The position numbers were made by a program, and so were the translations under genes. A DNA stretch of 64,000 bases, taken from NCBI RefSeq assembly GCF_001484685.1, contig NZ_CP012200.1:1854321-1918320 (forward strand), read 5' to 3'. The stretch comes from Thermococcus sp. 2319x1 (lineage in GTDB: Archaea > Methanobacteriota_B > Thermococci > Thermococcales > Thermococcaceae). A model generated the notes under the pieces. The model saw only the letters and a list, made by a program, of their open reading frames with translations. It made no database searches and was not told where the DNA came from. Shown here piece after piece: positions 53,761 through 64,000 of the stretch; within the stretch, counting starts at the first letter, position 1; every line of letters begins with the position of its first letter.

Positions 53761-54663
53761 CTAATCACTGAGTTTGAGCATCCTTTCAATTGCCCTTCTC
53801 GCCCTCTTTGCTATTTCTTCAGGGATGGTGATTTCGTATTTTTCATCTCTCAGAGATTCATAAATGTGTTTGAGGGTTATCGCTTTCATTCCAGTGCAAA
53901 AGGCATCTTCTCTGGCGGGATAGAACTTCTTGTTGGGATAGGCCTTTTGCAGCCTATAGCACATCTCTTTCTCAGTAAACACGACCCATTCATCATGCTG
54001 GCATGCGTTTTTGATCATCCCACCCGTTGAGACTATTAGATCTGCCCTTTTCTGAACTTCTGGTATGCATTCAGGGTGAACCATCAACTTTGCATTGGGA
54101 TAGAGCTTTTTGGTTCTCTCAACGTCTTCAGGTGTGAATTTTTTATGGACGTAGCAGTGCCCTCCCCTCGGAATTGGGATAATGTTCTTTCCAGTGCGCT
54201 CTGCAACGTAATATGCGAGGTTATTGTCGGGCCCAAAAATTATTGTGTCGGCATCAAGTTTTGAGATAATCTTCTCGGCGTTTGCTGAAGTTACGGTTAC
54301 ATCGGCATATGCCTTAGTTTCAGCGGTTGTGTTTACATAAAGCACAACGGGAGCGTCTGGGTACCTCCTTTTGGCTTCGAGAATGTGTTCAACCTTAAGC
54401 ATGTTCGCCATTGCACATGTAGCCCTCCTGGTTGGGAGGAGAACTTTCTTTTCGGGGTTTAGGATTTTTGCAGTCTCTGCCATAAAATCAACACCGGCAA
54501 AGACTATGATATCAGCGTCAACATTTACAGCTTTTCTTGCCAGTTCAAGGCTATCTCCAAGGAAGTCAGCTATGTCTTGAATCTCCGGAAGCTGGTAGTT
54601 GTGAGCCAAGATTATTGCGTTTTTTTCTTCTTTGAGCCTTATAATTTCATCCACCAAATTCAC
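53761..54663 (-). CDS. nadA: Quinolinate synthase
   Basis: 300 residues. 4Fe-4S enzyme condensing iminoaspartate with DHAP. Using GTG 54663 as start, the cluster cysteines become C83, C170 and C256, the numbering I recall for the crystallised Pyrococcus enzyme. GGGAGGTG lies 5-6 bases upstream of that GTG, whereas the GTG at 54672 overlaps it. [20 protein letters not shown] and [10 protein letters not shown] are substrate signatures. It overlaps nadB by 4 bases. Confidence 0.94.
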
Positions 54664-56057
54664 AGCATACACCTCCCGTTAAAAAGACTGAACCTTTCAA
54701 ACTCTTTTTTCGTAAGGGGATAATCTTCCCTGTAGTGAACGCCCCGGCTCTCCCTCCTTGCCAAGGCACACTCTAAAATTCCCCTTGCTAAGAGTTTAAT
54801 CCTCTCATCGGCTGTGATGTCTTCCAGCTCTTTTAGCCCTTTCCTAAGGCCATCCTCATTCCTCACTATCCCGGCATAGTTCCAGAGGATTTCTTTAACG
54901 CTTTCAACATCTCCAAGTTCTTGACTGGTGTCTCTAACTTCTACTGGCCCTCCCTTAGGGTTATCCCTCATTATGGTCCTTGCAACTTCTAATCCACTAA
55001 CTATGCACTCCAAAAGGGAGTTGCTTGCCAGTCTGTTCGCCCCATGAAAGCCGTTATCTGCAGTTTCTCCAATGGCATAGAGATTTTTGACAGTGGTTCT
55101 GTAATAAAGATCCACCTTTAGGCCGCCTATGGAGTAGTGAGCAATTGGAGTTACTGGGATGGGCTCCCTCTTAGGATTTATGCCTTCATTAGCCAGAAAA
55201 GCATAAATTTGAGGGAACCTTTCTTTAAAATCCTCAATCTTCGTGGCGTCTAAATACACCCTTTTGCCCTTTTGCATCTGGCTATAAATTGCCCTTGCAA
55301 CCACGTCTCTCGGTTCAAGTTCGTTAACAAATCGCTCGCCATCCTCATTGACAAGCTTTGCCCCGGCTCCCCTCACAGCTTCGCTTACAAGCTTTACTCC
55401 ATTCCTTCCGATAAATCCAGTTGGGTGAAATTGAACGAACTCCAAGTTACTCGCCAAAGCCCCTTTCATAATTGCGTCCCCAATTAGAACGCCCAGGTTA
55501 AGTGAAGAACCGGCAGTATATTTGAACAAAGCAGTGTACCCACCAGTTGCCAGTATGGTAGCATCGAATCTTAGGAACTCCCCATTAACGAATACTCCAT
55601 AACATTTTCTATTTTCTATGGCCATTGAGGAGGCATAACCCTCTATGAACTGGACACCAAGCTCTTTAGCTCTTAGATAAAGAAGCTTTGTTATATGCTT
55701 TCCTGTTTCATTTTTAATTGTGAAGACCCTTGGAAAACTGTGCCCCCCTTCGATCTCATTTCCTTCAAAGCTCAGGCCCAGGGAGAGCAAAAAATCATAA
55801 GCCTCACTGGATTTTGAAATAACGTTCCAAACGGCCTCCTCATCGTTTAGATACCTTCCAGCTCGGATTGTATCCAGAACATGTGACCTCACAGAATCTC
55901 CCTCAAGAATGGGGAAGGCTATTCCTGCCTGGGCTAAATAAGAATTTGTTTTCTTTATCCCTTTTCCGATAAGAGTCACTTCAAAGCCTTTTTTGGCCAA
56001 CGCTATTGCCGCAGTTAACCCTGCTATCCCATTCCCCATGATTCCTATTTTTGTCAT
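54660..56057 (-). CDS. nadB: L-aspartate oxidase
   Basis: 465 residues. FAD enzyme making iminoaspartate from aspartate for NadA. FAD site [17 protein letters not shown] (8-24), active-site FVQFHPTGF and [19 protein letters not shown], then [18 protein letters not shown]-terminal part ~40-70 residues shorter than Escherichia coli NadB, as usual in Pyrococcus. First gene of nadBAC. Confidence 0.93.
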
Positions 56058-56063
56058 ATGTCT

Positions 56064-56090
56064 ACCCGAACATTTATTCGGTGGTCGGGT
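56064..56090 (-). promoter_or_regulatory. Nested inverted repeat in the nadB leader
   Basis: CCGAACATTTATTCGG (56066-56081) is a symmetric element, overlapped by a wider pair ACCCGA (56064-56069) and TCGGGT (56085-56090). The nadB TATA-like AACTTTTAAAACC is just upstream on the minus strand, so the element covers the start-site region 8 bases before the ATG. It is a likely operator for an NAD-responsive repressor (regulator not identified). Confidence 0.45.
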
Positions 56091-56286
56091 TTTAAAAGTT
56101 TGCTAAAATATCGGGCGCGTTTTGGGTTTTTGCTGAATTTTTCTATGATCATGTTCTTGGATGGAATTTAAACTCAAACCCAAAGGCATAAAAGTCCGAT
56201 GCAGTAACAAAAATCCTGCCAGAATCCGGAAGGCTCCGATAACCCACCAACACGCCCCTAAAATATTAAAAATCCAGGGAAAATTT

Positions 56287-58428
56287 CTATTCCCCAAGGA
56301 GCTTTGGAAGTGAGTTGTAAAGTCCTCTTACTTTTTCTAAATCAATAGAGACGTGTTCTTCTCCGCATCTGAAGACAAGCCTCTTTCCTCCAGCCCTTCC
56401 AATTACTGCAAATTCATCGAAGAGAGCTTTGACCTTTTCGAGGTTTTTTTCTTCAAAGCTTATTATAAATCGACCATGGCTCTCCGAAAACATAACCTCT
56501 ATGGGATTGAGTTTTTCTTCGGCTGGAACCTTGCCTATGTCAACCTCAAATCCAATGTTCCCGCTTAAGGCCATCTCGGCAAGTGCTATAGCTATTCCCC
56601 CCTTGCTAACGTCGTGAACGGCCTTTACTACTCCAAGCTCTATTGCTTTTAAAATCCCCTCAACATTTCTTTTTTCTCTCTCCAGCTCAACCCTGGGGGC
56701 AAGCCCTCCGTTAATGTTTAAAACCCTGTAGAGCTCGCTCCCTCCAAGCTCTTTCTTTGTAACCCCAACAACAGCTATAAGGTCTCCCTCATCCTTGAAA
56801 TCCATTGTTGTAATGTTTTCGAGCCTCACTTTTCCCAATCCCGCAACCACTGGGGTCGGTTTTATAGACTTACTTCCCACCTCATTGTAAAAACTCACGT
56901 TCCCGCTTACGTATGCTAATCCAAAGGCCCTTGCCGCATCGGCGAGCCCTTTAATGGTCTCGATGAAGCTCCAGTAAACCTCGGGCCTTTCAGGTGAAGC
57001 GAAGTTGAGGTTATCAACCAAGGCCAAAGGTCTTGCCCCTACGCTCGCTAAGTTCCTAACGACTTCGGCAACGGCACCCATCGCTCCGTGGTAGGGGTTG
57101 AGGTGGCTGTGAGAGGGATTTCCATCGCTAACAAAAGCCAAGCCGTATTTTTCGTTTATTTTTAGCACCGCCGCATCCTTTCCGGGCTTTACAACTGTTC
57201 TTCCTTGAACCTCATGATCATACTGCTGCCATATCCACTCCTTGCTTACTATGTTTGGGCTTGAGAGCACTTTGAAGAAAGCCTCCTCGAGCCCTATTTC
57301 AGGTGTCTCAATTTCTCTTTCAACGTTGTAGGGCTTTGCTTCCCACTCTATTGTCGGCACTTCCGTGAGGAGTTCTATGGGTAAATCGGCCACTTTTTCT
57401 TCGTTCCAGTAGACGACATACCTGGGCTCTTCTATAATCTCACCGACAACAGCCCACTCAAGCTCGTACTTCTCAAAAATCTTTGTTATCTCTTCCAGAT
57501 CTTCTTTCCTAATGGCGAAGAGCATCCTCTCCTGGCTCTCGGAAATCATGACTTCCATTGGATTCATGTTTGGCTCCCTTTGGGGCACTCTGTCCGCGTA
57601 GATTATCGCCCCAAACCCTTTCTTCCCGGCCATCTCGGAGGAGGCGCAGGTTAAACCTCCTCCCCCGAGGTCTTTAAGGGCCCTGACTTTCCCGGTGTAA
57701 ACAGCTTCAAGCGTCGCCTCAATCAAAAGCTTCTCGGTGAATGGGTCGGGAATCTGCACCGCGGAGCGGTCTTCCTCCTCCGCGTTCTCGCTCAGCTCTT
57801 CGCTCGCGAAGGTAACTCCATGGATTCCATCCCTTCCCGTTTTGTTGCCAACTAAAACCAGCAGAAGACCGCTCTCCTCCACGTAGCTGTGAACGAGGTG
57901 CTCCGGCCTCATTAAACCAATACAAGCAACGTTGACAAGGGTGTAATTATTGAGGCTCTCATCGAACTCTGTCTCACCGCCAACAGTAGGAACGCCTATT
58001 CTATTGCCATAATCGGCTATTCCCTTTACCACGTACTCGAACAGATAGCGGTTGCGCTCCTTCTCAAGCGGCCCGAAGCGTATGCAATCGAGCAGAGCTA
58101 TCGGACGGGCCCCCATGCAGAGTACGTCCCTAACTATTCCCCCAACGCCGGTAGCTGCTCCCCCATAGGGTTCAACGGCGCTCGGATGGTTGTGGCTTTC
58201 TATCCCCACCACTATCCAAGTTTCATTGTCGAACCTCACTATTCCGGCATCTTCACCAGGGCCCAAAACCACGTGCTCGTTCTCCGTTGGAAGGAGCTTC
58301 AAAAAGGGTCTGCTCGACTTGTAAGAGACGTGCTCGCTCCACATTACTTCGAGCATCGCCCGCTCAAGTTCATTTGGCTCCCTTCCGAGCCTTTCGCGGA
58401 TGAATTTTTCCTCGTGAGGGAACATCAT
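56287..58428 (-). CDS. purL: Phosphoribosylformylglycinamidine synthase large subunit PurL
   Basis: 713 residues. ATP-dependent amidation of FGAR in complex with PurS and PurQ (not in window). Landmarks: [45 protein letters not shown]-type loop ([14 protein letters not shown]), [16 protein letters not shown], and [17 protein letters not shown] stands before two consecutive ATGs at 58428 and 58425. Its promoter has the purine elements. Confidence 0.96.
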
Positions 58429-60177: not shown

Positions 60178-61124
60178 CTAGACATGCCTCCTAATCCCCC
60201 AGTAAACCAGTATAAACATTAGGATGGCTCCAGTAAGGATAACTAAAGACTTGGGGAGGGTTAATCTCCGGGAAAATGTACGCTACCCACATGCATTTTT
60301 AGGTGAGTTAGGTTCTTCCCGTCATAAAAGAACAGAAGCGGTAACTCTGAAGCGGGGTCTCTCCCATTAACTTTAACATCTCCGGGGTAATAGATGAGAA
60401 TTCCCTTACCGACAGGTAGTGCATAAAGGGTTGAGAGTACATTGAGCGTTTTGTTCCCAAAGAAGCCTGATACATATCCGTCAAATTCAGTCACCGGAAT
60501 CCCATAAGTTAAATTTGCAAGTCTAAAGACTATGAAACCGTTCTCAATGACTCCCTTGACACCTGAGGGACTTTTCTGTGGGGTGTTGGCGAAGTAGCTC
60601 AGAATCTCGGTTCTATTACATTTTGTGCGCTCTGTCCCGTTCTGAAATTCAAGTCTTGTGCAGTTCCATATGAGAGAGGCACAACCATCGAAGCGATAAA
60701 CTCTCATTTCGGTTTTTTTGGCGGTGAGTGTAAGGTTCTTTGTCTCCCCGTTGATCGTCATGGTGACGTTTTTGTAGGGAACTACCATCTGCTTGCGCTG
60801 GAGAATGTAAAAAGTCCCGTTAATCTCGGCCACTACTGATGGTTCGCCGAGTAGAGGATTACTTTTTCCTAAAAACAGCAAGTCGCTTCCATTGAAAAGA
60901 TAGTAAAGGTCGTACTCCCCATCGGGCATGTTACGCCTAAGTGTTTCTTCCCCCGCAACCCTCTCGCATATCCATTCAGAATGGTGCACAATAATAAATG
61001 CATATCCATTGCTGGGTAGGATTGAGGTTATTGAATAGGTTTCATAAGGCTCACAAGTCTCACCAGAAACTAATGGAAAAATAAGTAGCAAAACTAAAAA
61101 CGAGATTTTAAAAGAGTTATACAT
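60178..61124 (-). pseudogene. Paralogous exported protein with a 3' frameshift
   Basis: ATG 61124 (GGGGGA upstream) starts a signal peptide (MYNSFKISFLVLLLIFPLVS). The frame runs to HVGSVHFPGD and stops at 60261. In a neighbouring frame the sequence continues LTLPKSLVILTGAILMFILVYWGIRRHV, matching the C-terminal anchor of the paralogue (GVLLTGIILVLVLVYWKAKMG), and ends at 60178. One base shift near 60270-60300 therefore removes the membrane anchor. Eight or more N-linked sequons are present. Without the anchor the protein may be secreted rather than lost. Confidence 0.65.
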
Positions 61125-62111
61125 AATTATCCCCCAATCTTCTAGTAAATCCCTCCATTTCACTAATGACATTCAGGTCAATGCTGAAATAGTATGCTCT
61201 GTTCGGATATAAACTTCCCAAGATATCCTTCTGCACTTTGGTGTAGTGGTATGCTATGATTTTAGCTTCAGTTGTGTACTGGCTTAAGCATTCTGGACTA
61301 AATGTTGGGGCACAATATTCAATAAGAGATATTCTAAAGTTTTCTTCTAGGTGCGTATGATTGATATAGTAAAAGAGCAAACTCTGATCGACTTCCATTT
61401 CTATGTAGATGTTGAACGCATCGTTCTCATTCTTTAGATTTTCAAGTTTTGTCAGCCACTCCTTAAAAATCTCATATGTGTAAGGTATGTAGTCGTTAGT
61501 TCCCCTTGCAATAGCACCTCTTTGGTAGTAATTTGGTTGTACAAAAATGTAGTCAAAGAGCCTTGACAGACTGAAAATATTAGTTTTTTCCAGTACCAAT
61601 GTGCAGGCGGAAGGTATCCATATAAACTTCTTGTTTAAGTTTCTCGCATAAGTCGATATCTCTTCAATGTCTTCCTCATATACTGTCCCATCGCTCACTT
61701 GCCATACATCCTCTAGGCTCCAGTAAAAGCCCTTTAAATTTCCTCCAGTCGAGTTTAAAACTCCATCAATCCACCCTTTCCAGTAGGACACCCCCTGACA
61801 CCCTTGCTGGAAACGTTTGTGTTATTCAATACAGGGATAGAAGCGAAGTAGTCAATAAAACCTTCAAAGTGTCTGTTTAACCAGCTTCCAAATTTGTTTC
61901 CATCGTAATACCCATCATCATATGAATATCCTCTCTGAGGAGTATTCCGACCTTCTCCGTTATCAAGTATCACTGCATAATCAAATCCTAACTTTTTGAA
62001 ATCATCAACAGTTGCAGAAATACCCTGCCAATTCTTGTCCCTTCCATTTATCATTCTCGATTCATACTTCAAACCATTCCATCTAATCCACCAAAGGCCA
62101 AGTGTTGCCAT
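61117..62111 (-). pseudogene. DUF4855-like protein, one-base frameshift
   Basis: ATG 62111 opens GLWWIRWNGLKYESRMINGRD. Reading continues to NNTNVSSKGVRG and then leaves frame in a C5 run on the plus strand (61791-61795); adding one base restores GVSYWKGWIDGVLNSTGGNLKGFYWSLED through FDYIFVQPNYYQ to the stop at 61117. The features (KGFYWSLED, FIWIPSACT, YIFVQPNYY) resemble DUF4855 glycoside-hydrolase-like proteins. A TATA-like ATTTTTATACTG precedes it. The 3' end overlaps the next gene's ATG, so three genes formed an operon. Confidence 0.65.
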
Positions 62112-62170: not shown

Positions 62171-62939
62171 ATACTGTTAGGATAAGCTGTGGGGCGTCAG
62201 ATTTAAGTTATCAGCAATACTTCAGGAAAAGAAGGGGAACGTGAAGGCTGAAACCATTATTTACTGCTTGTTTTCAGCCTTAAAACCCTTTCGTCACAAC
62301 AAAATTCCAGCGGAAAAGAAAATCAGGGCAGTAGAATTATTGCAGGGCCTCAGTTACCGGCAAGTCTCCAAGATACTAGAAATCAGCCACACAAGAGCCG
62401 AAACAGTTCAAAAACTAGCGGAAGCAATTTACAAGCCAAAAATCCTCACAGTGAGGAAACAGAGGAATTTTATCGCAGTTGATGAGACTGTAATAAAAAT
62501 CAATGGACAGAAAAGATTTCTCTGGGCTGCGATTGATGTTGAAAGCGAAGAAATCCTCGCAGTCTGGATTACAGCCACCAGAAACTGGTGGGTTGCTAGG
62601 GAGTTTATTCTGGTTGTTTTAAAGTCCTGTGAAGGGCGGCCTGTTTTTCTGGTTGATAATGCTAGGGTACAAGTCTGCTTTTAAATCCCTTGGGCTGGCT
62701 TATGTTCACGTAACTTTCGGGCCAAGGAATAGTATTGAGCGCTGGTTTAGGACTGTGAAGGAGCGGACAAAGCGTTTCTGGAATAATTTAGGAGTAGCGA
62801 TTGGAGGGGGGTTCAGAGGTTTGTTTTTCTGTTTGCCTTCTGGTATAATTTTGTCAGGATTCATTCTCGGTTTAATGCTCCGCCTGGAAACATCGCTGAA
62901 TGGGTTCAGGAGGGGATACCCAAGTTATCCTAACAGTAT
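62171..62939 (+). mobile_element. IS6-family (ISPfu1-like) insertion sequence, inactive
   Basis: Perfect 15-bp terminal inverted repeats ATACTGTTAGGATAA (62171-62185) and TTATCCTAACAGTAT (62925-62939) bound a 769-bp element. The right end joins IS982 DNA directly at GATTGGTGG, about 52 bp inside that element, so it inserted there. The left flank is not IS982 and no 8-bp target duplication is present, so the two flanks were brought together by deletion or rearrangement after insertion. Confidence 0.88.
62241..62933 (+). pseudogene. IS6-family transposase, two frameshifts
   Basis: Starts MKAETIIYCLFSALKPFRHN; DDE residues include DETVIKINGQKRFLWAAIDV and FLVDNA. Near 62660 a small deletion shifts reading to YKSAFKSLGLAYVHVTFGPRNSIERWF, and near 62795-62815 a second shift moves it to RFVFLFAFWYNFVRIHSRF, ending at 62931-62933 inside the right terminal repeat. 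All three catalytic segments remain recognisable, so decay is recent. Confidence 0.87.
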
Positions 62940-63113
62940 GGATTGGTGGTTGTTGTGAATTTTCAGGAGGAAATCTTGCTCATAAAATCCGAGATTTACC
63001 CAATAATCAGCGAACGAGTGTTAGTTTGAGGGGTTTGACTGTCAGGATTTTAGGAGCAATTCTGGCCGTGAATCTGGATAGATTATACAACTTCACAGGT
63101 GGTGGGAATTAGG
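62940..63113 (+). mobile_element. Internally deleted IS982 derivative
   Basis: The left part encodes the IS982 transposase N-terminus (MNFQEEILLIKSEIYPIIS) and at about 63013-63017 joins the C-terminal coding part (SVSLRGLTVRILGAILAVNL) and the right end GGTGGGAATTAGG. Some 700 bp between are missing. The left terminus was lost to the IS6 insertion. This is how miniature elements arise from an IS. Confidence 0.83.
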
Positions 63114-63149
63114 ATACAACTTATAATTATTAACTACAAGTTTACGAAA

Positions 63150-63189
63150 AAATTAAATATAATCAAAACTTAAGTAAATTTGCTGAGGT
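63150..63189 (+). promoter_or_regulatory. Promoter and ribosome site of the precursor-peptide gene
   Basis: AAATTAAATATAATC (about 63149-63163) is a good TATA box; 21 bases later GAGGTAACA stands directly before ATG 63194. Spacing fits archaeal transcription with a short leader. Confidence 0.55.
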
Positions 63190-63193
63190 AACA

Positions 63194-63418
63194 ATGAAGC
63201 AGATAAAGAAGGTGATTAGAGATTGAAGAAAGGAGGTATATCCCTCCAGTAATTAGTAGAGATATCGACAGAATTGGACCTATTTGTGCCCCAGAAGCCC
63301 ATTGGAAAAGTGGCACTTTTACGAATGAATACATACCCCCACAATAACAAGGGAACCCGATAGAATTGGACCTATATGCGCTCCAGAGGCCCATTGGAAG
63401 TCAGGAGGAATTAATTGA
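63194..63418 (+). pseudogene. Tandem-core RiPP-type precursor peptide, apparently frameshifted
   Basis: ATG 63194 reads MKQIKKVIRD then stops. One base shift after VI continues as IEERRYIPPVISRDI followed by DRIGPICAPEAHWKSG, then TFTNEYIPPQ and a stop. A second shift in the C5 run 63336-63340 (one C more) turns that end into EYIPPTITREP, a second DRIGPICAPEAHWKSG, then GIN and TGA (63416-63418). The two 16-residue cores are identical although 8 of 16 codons differ synonymously, so selection acted on the protein. Repaired length is about 74 residues: a short basic leader and two 30-residue repeats. Cys, His, Trp and Lys are candidate modification sites. I do not recognise a family. Confidence 0.68.
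63237..63415 (+). repeat. Two tandem 30-codon units within the precursor gene
   Basis: Unit 1 is 63237-63326 (YIPPVISRDI, core, TFTN); unit 2 is 63330-63415 (YIPPTITREP, core, GIN). Each begins YIPP, then xI[ST]R[DE]x, then the invariant core. The match is protein-level, not only DNA. Confidence 0.75.
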
Positions 63419-63428
63419 CTACCTATCT

Positions 63429-63443
63429 TAGTTTTTGTTTTTA
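63429..63443 (+). terminator. T-rich stretch between precursor and radical SAM gene
   Basis: TAGTTTTTGTTTTTAA lies 10 bases after the precursor stop and 68 before the enzyme. T-runs terminate transcription in Thermococcales; a partial one here would give more precursor than enzyme mRNA, as in many RiPP operons. Confidence 0.4.
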
Positions 63444-63510
63444 ACTATATCTCCCCTCTCGTCGCTATATCTTTGGAAGTCAATTGAAAAAGTAACTGAG
63501 GGAAGCCCCT

Positions 63511-64000
63511 ATGCGGAAAGACATACCATCACTTGATATCGTGGAGATAGACTTAACAAATAAATGTAATTTCATGTGTCGTCATTGTCGTGCTAATGCC
63601 AAAAATAAAGAGTATCACGAATTGGAGTATAATTTGTTACTCAAAACTATTGATGAACTAATAGACATGGATGTCCCAACAATAGTCCTTGCAGGAGGAG
63701 AACCATTACTTTATCCAAAAATTATCGAATTTGTGAATTACATAGTCTCTAATGGTAGTGAAGCGCATGTAACTACCAACGGATATTTCCATAGCACTTT
63801 GCAGGCTTTAATAGACAATGTGGAAAATCCAGAGCTTCTTAGAGTTGCTGTAAGCATTTACGGTCCAGAGAGATATCATGATGAAGTTCTGTGATGTGCA
63901 AGGGGCATACAATAAAGCTATTAAATCTCTTGAGCTTTGCATTGAACATGGAATAATAACGACAGTGAACTTCACAATAACTGGGGAAAACATAAGATAT
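63511..64000 (+). pseudogene. Radical SAM peptide-modifying enzyme, 5' part, frameshifted (runs off window)
   Basis: ATG 63511 with GAGGGA upstream. EIDLTNKCNFMCRHCRANA holds the CxxxCxxC cluster (C18, C22, C25), LAGGEPLLYP the SAM motif, and VTTNGYF the next strand, as in SPASM/Twitch peptide maturases. At about 63888 the frame stops (HDEVL); one base removed gives YHDEFCDVQGAYNKAIKSLE and open reading to the window end. The HDEF(x)3GxY pattern is usual in this family, so the shift is real or an error, not a natural end. C-terminal SPASM cysteines would lie beyond the window. It is likely to modify the upstream peptide. Confidence 0.72.

Follow-up and report, generated by a model that had tools for sequence, protein, structure and literature searches.

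What kind of locus lies at the far end of this stretch of DNA, where two copies of a short peptide core precede a radical SAM enzyme, and how is it switched on? The window, i.e. the whole stretch analysed, comprises 64,000 nt (G000:C1:1854321-1918320) of the 1.96 Mb single-contig genome of Thermococcus sp. 2319x1, hereafter G000. Both copies of the core read DRIGPICAPEAHWKSG, as given in the preliminary description, and the TATA-like box and the radical SAM motifs CNFMCRHC (63565-63588) and GGEPLLYP (63694-63717) were also present (Table 1). In contrast, the claim that a single small gene starting at 63194 encodes both cores was contradicted, as the cores lie in different frames and the ATG at that position opens a short ORF ending at a stop, being itself part of a conserved leader. 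Moreover, the frame of core 1 contained no ATG, GTG or TTG between the last upstream stop and the core. Aligned with an intact homologue found in another genome (G060), the window copy showed ATT at 63222 instead of ATG, a gap of 1 bp located between the two cores and, in the enzyme gene (enzyme 1), three indels that change the frame, the first inside the window and the other two beyond its edge. This copy is broken, with core 1 lacking a start codon, the cores out of frame and the enzyme frameshifted. The YIPP start was found before core 1; the second YIPP shares its reading frame with core 1, and the frame change lies beside it. Likewise, the motifs of the radical SAM protein are real, but its ORF is cut by a frameshift. 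Downstream of the window edge in G000, the genes for PqqD, a second radical SAM/SPASM enzyme (enzyme 2) and an MFS protein were all open.

Table 1. Features of the promoter, precursor and enzyme region at the end of the window (positions within the window).
Feature	Position	Strand	Remarks
Shared promoter, two TTAAC-type boxes + SurR-like site + TATA-like box	63098..63176	+	Model R1
SurR-like site ATTATTAACTACAAGTT	63126..63142	+	One mismatch to GTTn3AACn5GTT (PMC12162507)
TATA-like box AATTAAATAT	63151..63160	+	From the sequence
Conserved leader box (TTTGCTGAGGTAACAATGAAGCAGA)	63179..63203	+	Includes ATG 63194; also in 10 promoter-linked loci
10-codon ORF MKQIKKVIRD	63194..63226	+	From the ATG of the preliminary description; not the precursor
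Precursor gene, broken	63222..63418	+	ATT at start position; frame change near 63337, between cores; intact homologue L015:456-653
Core 1, DRIGPICAPEAHWKSG	63267..63314	+	Read in translation
Core 2, DRIGPICAPEAHWKSG	63359..63406	+	Frame differs from that of core 1
Radical SAM/SPASM enzyme 1, broken	63511..64000	+	First ORF 63511-63894; frameshift near 63883

The leader box surrounds TGCYGARRYAACRATGARGC, and its ATG opens a short ORF beginning M(K/R); among the ten promoter-linked loci in which it was found, the form in G018 was 2 nt longer. A hairpin in this box was not supported, since 88.9% of the cells in an alignment leaving out the longer G018 box were paired, compared with a shuffled mean of 87.5%, and a search of window 62900-63520 against Rfam gave no match at E ≤ 1. 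The DNA immediately before the cluster (62241-62958 and 63016-63113) contains transposase-like ORFs, in two frames, and a many-copy repeat, which ends at 63113 and has 19 further matches in the genome. This repeat and the broken ORFs preceding it are presumably IS remnants, and a related copy is located after the MFS gene. Further upstream, two overlapping ORFs of 118 and 224 aa on the minus strand (61117-62111) look like one broken gene.

The preliminary description had proposed a search for intact precursor and radical SAM pairs elsewhere, and would have counted transporters or proteases past position 64000 as support. The pair is present in G060, which harbours an intact five-gene cluster encoding a precursor (65 aa, two cores), enzyme 1 (347 aa, counted from the ATG at 717 of L015), PqqD (97 aa), enzyme 2 (331 aa) and an MFS protein (395 aa), in the same order as in G000 and its continuation past the window edge. 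A transporter appeared as the MFS exporter, accompanied by PqqD and the second SPASM enzyme, while no protease was recognised in the cluster. A homologous core beside a radical SAM gene, on which the earlier reading depended, was therefore found, in this one other genome only.

The distribution of the cluster was narrow. Among the 94 genomes assigned to the order of the window (Thermococcales), the core pattern (≤2 mismatches) appeared in G000 and G060 with two copies each, and the reversed pattern gave no match, so that the core is not a chance occurrence. A protein search with the precursor (E ≤ 10) listed 21 of these genomes, being significant only in the same two (E ≥ 0.02 in the other 19). 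Enzyme 1 had matches at E ≤ 1e-30 in 44 of the 94 genomes, with identities of up to 33% outside G000 and G060; among 115 genomes of the phylum, three went beyond 1e-46, the third at 33% identity. In the GTDB genome collection, the precursor scan produced 23 pattern stretches, none of which was confirmed, and plasmids gave no match. One viral-contig candidate (L072, the one kept of 11 stretches) was discarded as chance, lying on the opposite strand of a long ORF in G+C-rich DNA. The enzyme scan of the GTDB genomes yielded at least 478 relatives among at least 593 stretches, the best 80 of which were 23-31% identical, with no near relative among the matches listed.

Over the genes of the cluster, the DNA identity between G000 and G060 was 83-90%, compared with 65-74% over three matched pieces of a chromosomal control (window 54000-58428, identified by eye as a purine gene region), which suggests that the cluster was transferred between genera. 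Pairwise dN/dS values, calculated on ungapped in-register codons (setting aside five gapped codons and one in-register stop in enzyme 1), were low for the precursor (0.175), enzyme 1 (0.138), PqqD (0.121), enzyme 2 (0.167) and the MFS gene (0.205). Hence, either the genes would have been under selection until recently or the lesions would be read errors.

The promoter of the cluster proved to be more widespread than the cluster. Its stretch in the window matches four other promoters in G000, and a strict 19-mer (≤1 mismatch) was found at 13 sites in 9 of the 94 order genomes, the reversed 19-mer giving none. Twelve of these sites lie at small-peptide, radical SAM or exporter loci; for L160 in G012, found with one mismatch, no radical SAM or exporter gene was shown. 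A model (R1) was built from the sequences of 12 promoters only, excluding L160 and also the G078 copy of the G077 site for being near-identical. This model matched the window promoter, itself one of the 12 training rows, with an E of 1e-12 (G000:C1:1917418-1917496), and found a total of 26 strong sites (E ≤ 8e-6) in 18 of the 94 genomes, the next match being at 1.5e-4. In G000 alone there were eight sites at E ≤ 3.6e-4, followed by a match at 0.15. Among the 115 phylum genomes, sites at E ≤ 3e-4 were present in 19, each a member of the family of the window, the larger promoter searches having used stricter filters that lose weak matches.

A radical SAM ORF (Cx3Cx2C) was located on the same strand within 1.4 kb downstream of 21 of the 26 strong sites; for a genome of 1.96 Mb with 28 radical SAM domains, as in G000, about 1% would be expected at random. 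This count combines 16 of 18 sites scanned by script with 5 of 8 judged by eye, and includes the broken enzyme of the window as well as a truncated one of 66 aa in G029. The remaining five sites (L075a, L075b, L076, L186 and L187) precede ABC or MFS genes, L187 also with a radical SAM remnant. For the strong sites outside the training set, the proportion was 12 of 14, although one of those 12 (in G078) hardly differs from a training site, and L204 and L205 hardly differ from each other. As a control, none of 11 weak matches (E from 4.4e-4 to 3.2e-3) had such an ORF, while L191, a weak match at 2.3e-4, is a true peptide and enzyme locus. Twenty enzymes of promoter loci, including enzyme 2 and that of the weakly matched L207, fell into 12 groups at 45% identity. 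Ten enzymes were tested, all of them under every curated cut-off shown; their nearest models include CcpM, CefB, geopeptide, StsB, KxxxW and mycofactocin, with ApyD for L207. Ten precursor families were counted by eye at the strong sites, and no promoter-linked precursor had an NCBIfam or Pfam match at E ≤ 0.1 in tests of ten sequences per library, with the L203 precursor in neither test and the G039 type absent from that of Pfam. Judged on sequence, the promoter is thus common to about ten unrelated families of predicted precursors.

Several of these loci deserve a brief description. A second RiPP-type locus with the same promoter in G000 (L010, G000:C1:1806000-1813500, minus strand) encodes the 33-aa peptide MEVVELKAKLPPVAPSAGGVGLACCCDKVGTGK, a PapB-like radical SAM enzyme and an ABC exporter, and has relatives in G081 and G018. 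In the near-identical loci L204 (G078:C1:671700-676500) and L205 (G000:C1:125500-130000), an exact SurR-like site precedes the genes for a radical SAM enzyme and for a pair of successive small peptides, both starting with Y(I/L)PP(I/V)G. Peptides of the type MVKTILSRLISGPTPAGGCC accompany a radical SAM enzyme in L161 (G015) and L163 (G058), and in a locus of the same type in G000 (L075 from 7577) the enzyme is cut short and the ABC genes are still open. L203 (G015:C1:1500-5300, minus strand) consists of the very short peptide MKKKLKIRKLSNAGCYHWNSHDSVGL followed by a radical SAM enzyme, with an exact SurR-like site in its promoter. Finally, L207 (G000:C1:229000-233000), whose promoter match is weak, encodes a peptide of 35 aa together with a repeat-type protein and a radical SAM enzyme of the B12 type, for which ApyD is the nearest model (175 vs. 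750 bits).

The core of the promoter resembles the binding site of SurR, described as GTTn3AACn5GTT, which leads to activation when located upstream of the TATA box and is released by elemental sulfur (PMC12162507). The SurR-like site of the window lies upstream of the TATA-like box, i.e. in the activating position (PMC12162507). Considering 29 promoters (26 strong and three weak), the motif was exact in nine (including G060 and L010) and had at most one mismatch in 26; shuffled letters gave means of 0.016 and 0.39, respectively, for promoters that share ancestry and in each of which the best-fitting 17-mer was picked. In 24 rows placed alike, the specified positions carried 1.75-2.0 bits, except the first (0.82), which is A in most promoters including that of the window, and the n-positions 0.55-0.96 bits, except the last (2.0). 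On both strands of G000, a total of 26 exact sites were found, compared with 14 for the backwards pattern. Four regions containing eight of them were examined: an exact site begins 58 bp before the surR ORF, two precede a hydrogenase-type operon, and the other two regions had a 174-aa ORF and no ORF of at least 90 aa within 160 bp, respectively. G000 encodes a protein matching Transcription Factor PF0095, which we take to be SurR of Pyrococcus furiosus, and the hydrogenase-type operon includes an antiporter subunit matching 6cfw, presumably the P. furiosus membrane hydrogenase.

From these sequences, SurR appears the likelier regulator of the shared promoter, and a RiPP regulon controlled by sulfur or redox state is taken as a working hypothesis. 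A different regulator specific to peptide loci is possible but rather unlikely. Conservation extends beyond the SurR site to the TTTA.GA motif and to a TTAACT box upstream, and the model scores in G000 clearly separate the eight peptide or exporter loci from the SurR sites of other genes, both of which would fit such a protein. The frequent A at the first SurR position, the common ancestry of the promoters and the selection of the best 17-mer in each also weigh against SurR. Nevertheless, the positions specified by SurR are precisely the conserved ones, while the spacers vary, and two weak model matches in G000 (E 0.7-0.9) fall on exact SurR sites, including the site in front of surR.

As for the cluster, its two enzymes could be heme-type (AhbD/NirJ) or other non-peptide radical SAM proteins, the repeat peptide being incidental. 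Enzyme 1 scored best with heme b synthase (TIGR04545), NirJ2 and TIGR04053, and enzyme 2 with TIGR04053 and heme b synthase; among solved sequences, enzyme 2 had ten matches, SkfB being the best, with viperins and a nucleoside decarboxylase also present. However, all scores were far under the curated cut-offs (for enzyme 1, 203.6 vs. 500 bits for its best match and 183.1 vs. 500 for TIGR04055), so that membership of the AhbD/NirJ heme enzymes was not reached, and the only solved matches of enzyme 1 at E ≤ 1e-5 were PqqE and SkfB (6c8v, 6efn). Furthermore, the operon contains PqqD (PF05402, 43 bits vs. a Pfam cut-off of 23.4; TbiB1 protein as its sole solved match at E ≤ 0.1, weak at 0.094) and an exporter, the precursor and enzyme 1 co-occur in the only two genomes having either, and this promoter also stands before further small peptides accompanied by different maturase-like enzymes, all of which makes this explanation very improbable. 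PqqD together with SPASM enzymes is the PQQ layout, and the product might instead be a redox cofactor like PQQ or mycofactocin that is not exported. Such a cofactor would suit the presence of PqqE among the nearest solved relatives and the link to redox metabolism suggested by the SurR-like site; it is hard to reconcile with the MFS gene of the operon, the two cores of each precursor, a patchy distribution with likely transfer and decay, and the lack of any recognised dehydrogenase among the ORFs examined, and we give it very little weight. Slightly less remote, though still improbable, is a functional window cluster whose frameshifts are due to errors of assembly. The low dN/dS of the precursor and enzyme 1 and the open PqqD, enzyme 2 and MFS genes would be expected in that case, but independent lesions fell in two adjacent genes together with an altered start codon, and none in the next three, and further G000 loci of the promoter set also lack the enzyme (L075a and L075b).

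The explanation that we consider probable is a recently inactivated RiPP cluster with maturation by two enzymes, MFS export and a shared promoter that likely has a SurR-like activator. A small precursor with a conserved core beside a maturase is intact in G060 and broken in the window, and the maturases have the expected features, namely CNFMCRHC (CxxxCxxC) and a SPASM part in enzyme 1 and an intact enzyme 2. The intact G060 precursor consists of two repeats, each made up of a recognition part, Y(I/V)PPTI(S/T)R, and the core GPICAPEAHW(K/R)S after it. Y(I/V)PP resembles a recognition element that recurs before each core, and a related start, Y(I/V)PP(I/V)G, is present in a further pair of promoter-linked precursors. 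PqqD would presumably present this precursor to both radical SAM/SPASM enzymes, each core being modified by the two of them, most likely through a ring that links its only Cys to a residue close by. The four cores share RxGPICAPEAHW(K/R)S, and a crosslink through Lys, among the residues proposed in the preliminary description, is disfavoured because one intact core has Arg at that position, so that Lys is probably not needed. A protease encoded outside the cluster would free the product, which the MFS protein may then export. Transcription would start from the promoter common to about ten other RiPP-type precursor families in Thermococcales, and a SurR-like activator is likely to bind immediately before the TATA box, so that the linked loci should be on in the absence of elemental sulfur.

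The exporter ORF was open while the precursor or the maturase was broken or missing in the window cluster, L075a and L075b, a pattern that would fit a protective role of the exporter against a toxic product. Exporters without peptide or maturase were present in L076 and L186, and the ABC gene of L187 and L190 looks broken too. On this gene content, an antagonistic peptide with a protective exporter is weakly favoured.

The window cluster represents a new precursor family, and its main value lies in exposing a promoter common to many archaeal RiPP-type loci. We see about an even chance that Thermococcales carry some ten dispersed and horizontally exchanged unrelated RiPP-type families, each equipped with a dedicated radical SAM maturase and in many cases an exporter, under one SurR-controlled promoter that is turned on when elemental sulfur runs out. 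If so, the promoter sequence would be a family-independent tag for finding archaeal RiPPs, a single regulatory sequence would give access to some ten new families of heat-stable peptides and a dozen thermostable maturase groups, and peptide production would be tied to the main energy switch of these archaea. Literature searches of open-access papers, at the level of titles and the beginnings of abstracts, gave no Thermococcales RiPP and no such promoter.

Among known systems, the SynChlorMet and GeoRSP cassettes (NCBIfam) likewise combine a PqqD-family protein with radical SAM/SPASM proteins. However, the curated cut-offs of neither were reached: PqqD scored highest with ScmD, yet with 39 bits vs. 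a cut-off of 100, and enzyme 1 remained far under 400 bits with ScmF (114) and GeoRSP (136), and no matching precursor family was found. The peptide-modifying PqqE/PqqD and SkfB systems include the solved structures nearest to enzyme 1, although distant (E about 1e-14), and the present cluster differs from them in having two enzymes, a two-core precursor and an MFS exporter. Ranthipeptides and sactipeptides share with it the small precursor, the Cys in the core and the radical SAM/SPASM enzymes, but each core here has just one Cys and the thioether is putative. Radical SAM RiPP clusters are reported to be widespread in Archaea (PMC12144867); the experiments of that mining study concern lanthipeptides, and its main text has no occurrence of 'Thermococc', 'Pyrococcus' or 'promoter'. 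Finally, the SurR regulon of Thermococcales, which as described is one of energy metabolism (the terms 'radical SAM' and 'peptide' being absent from the main text), likewise has a GTTn3AACn5GTT-like site upstream of the TATA box (PMC12162507).
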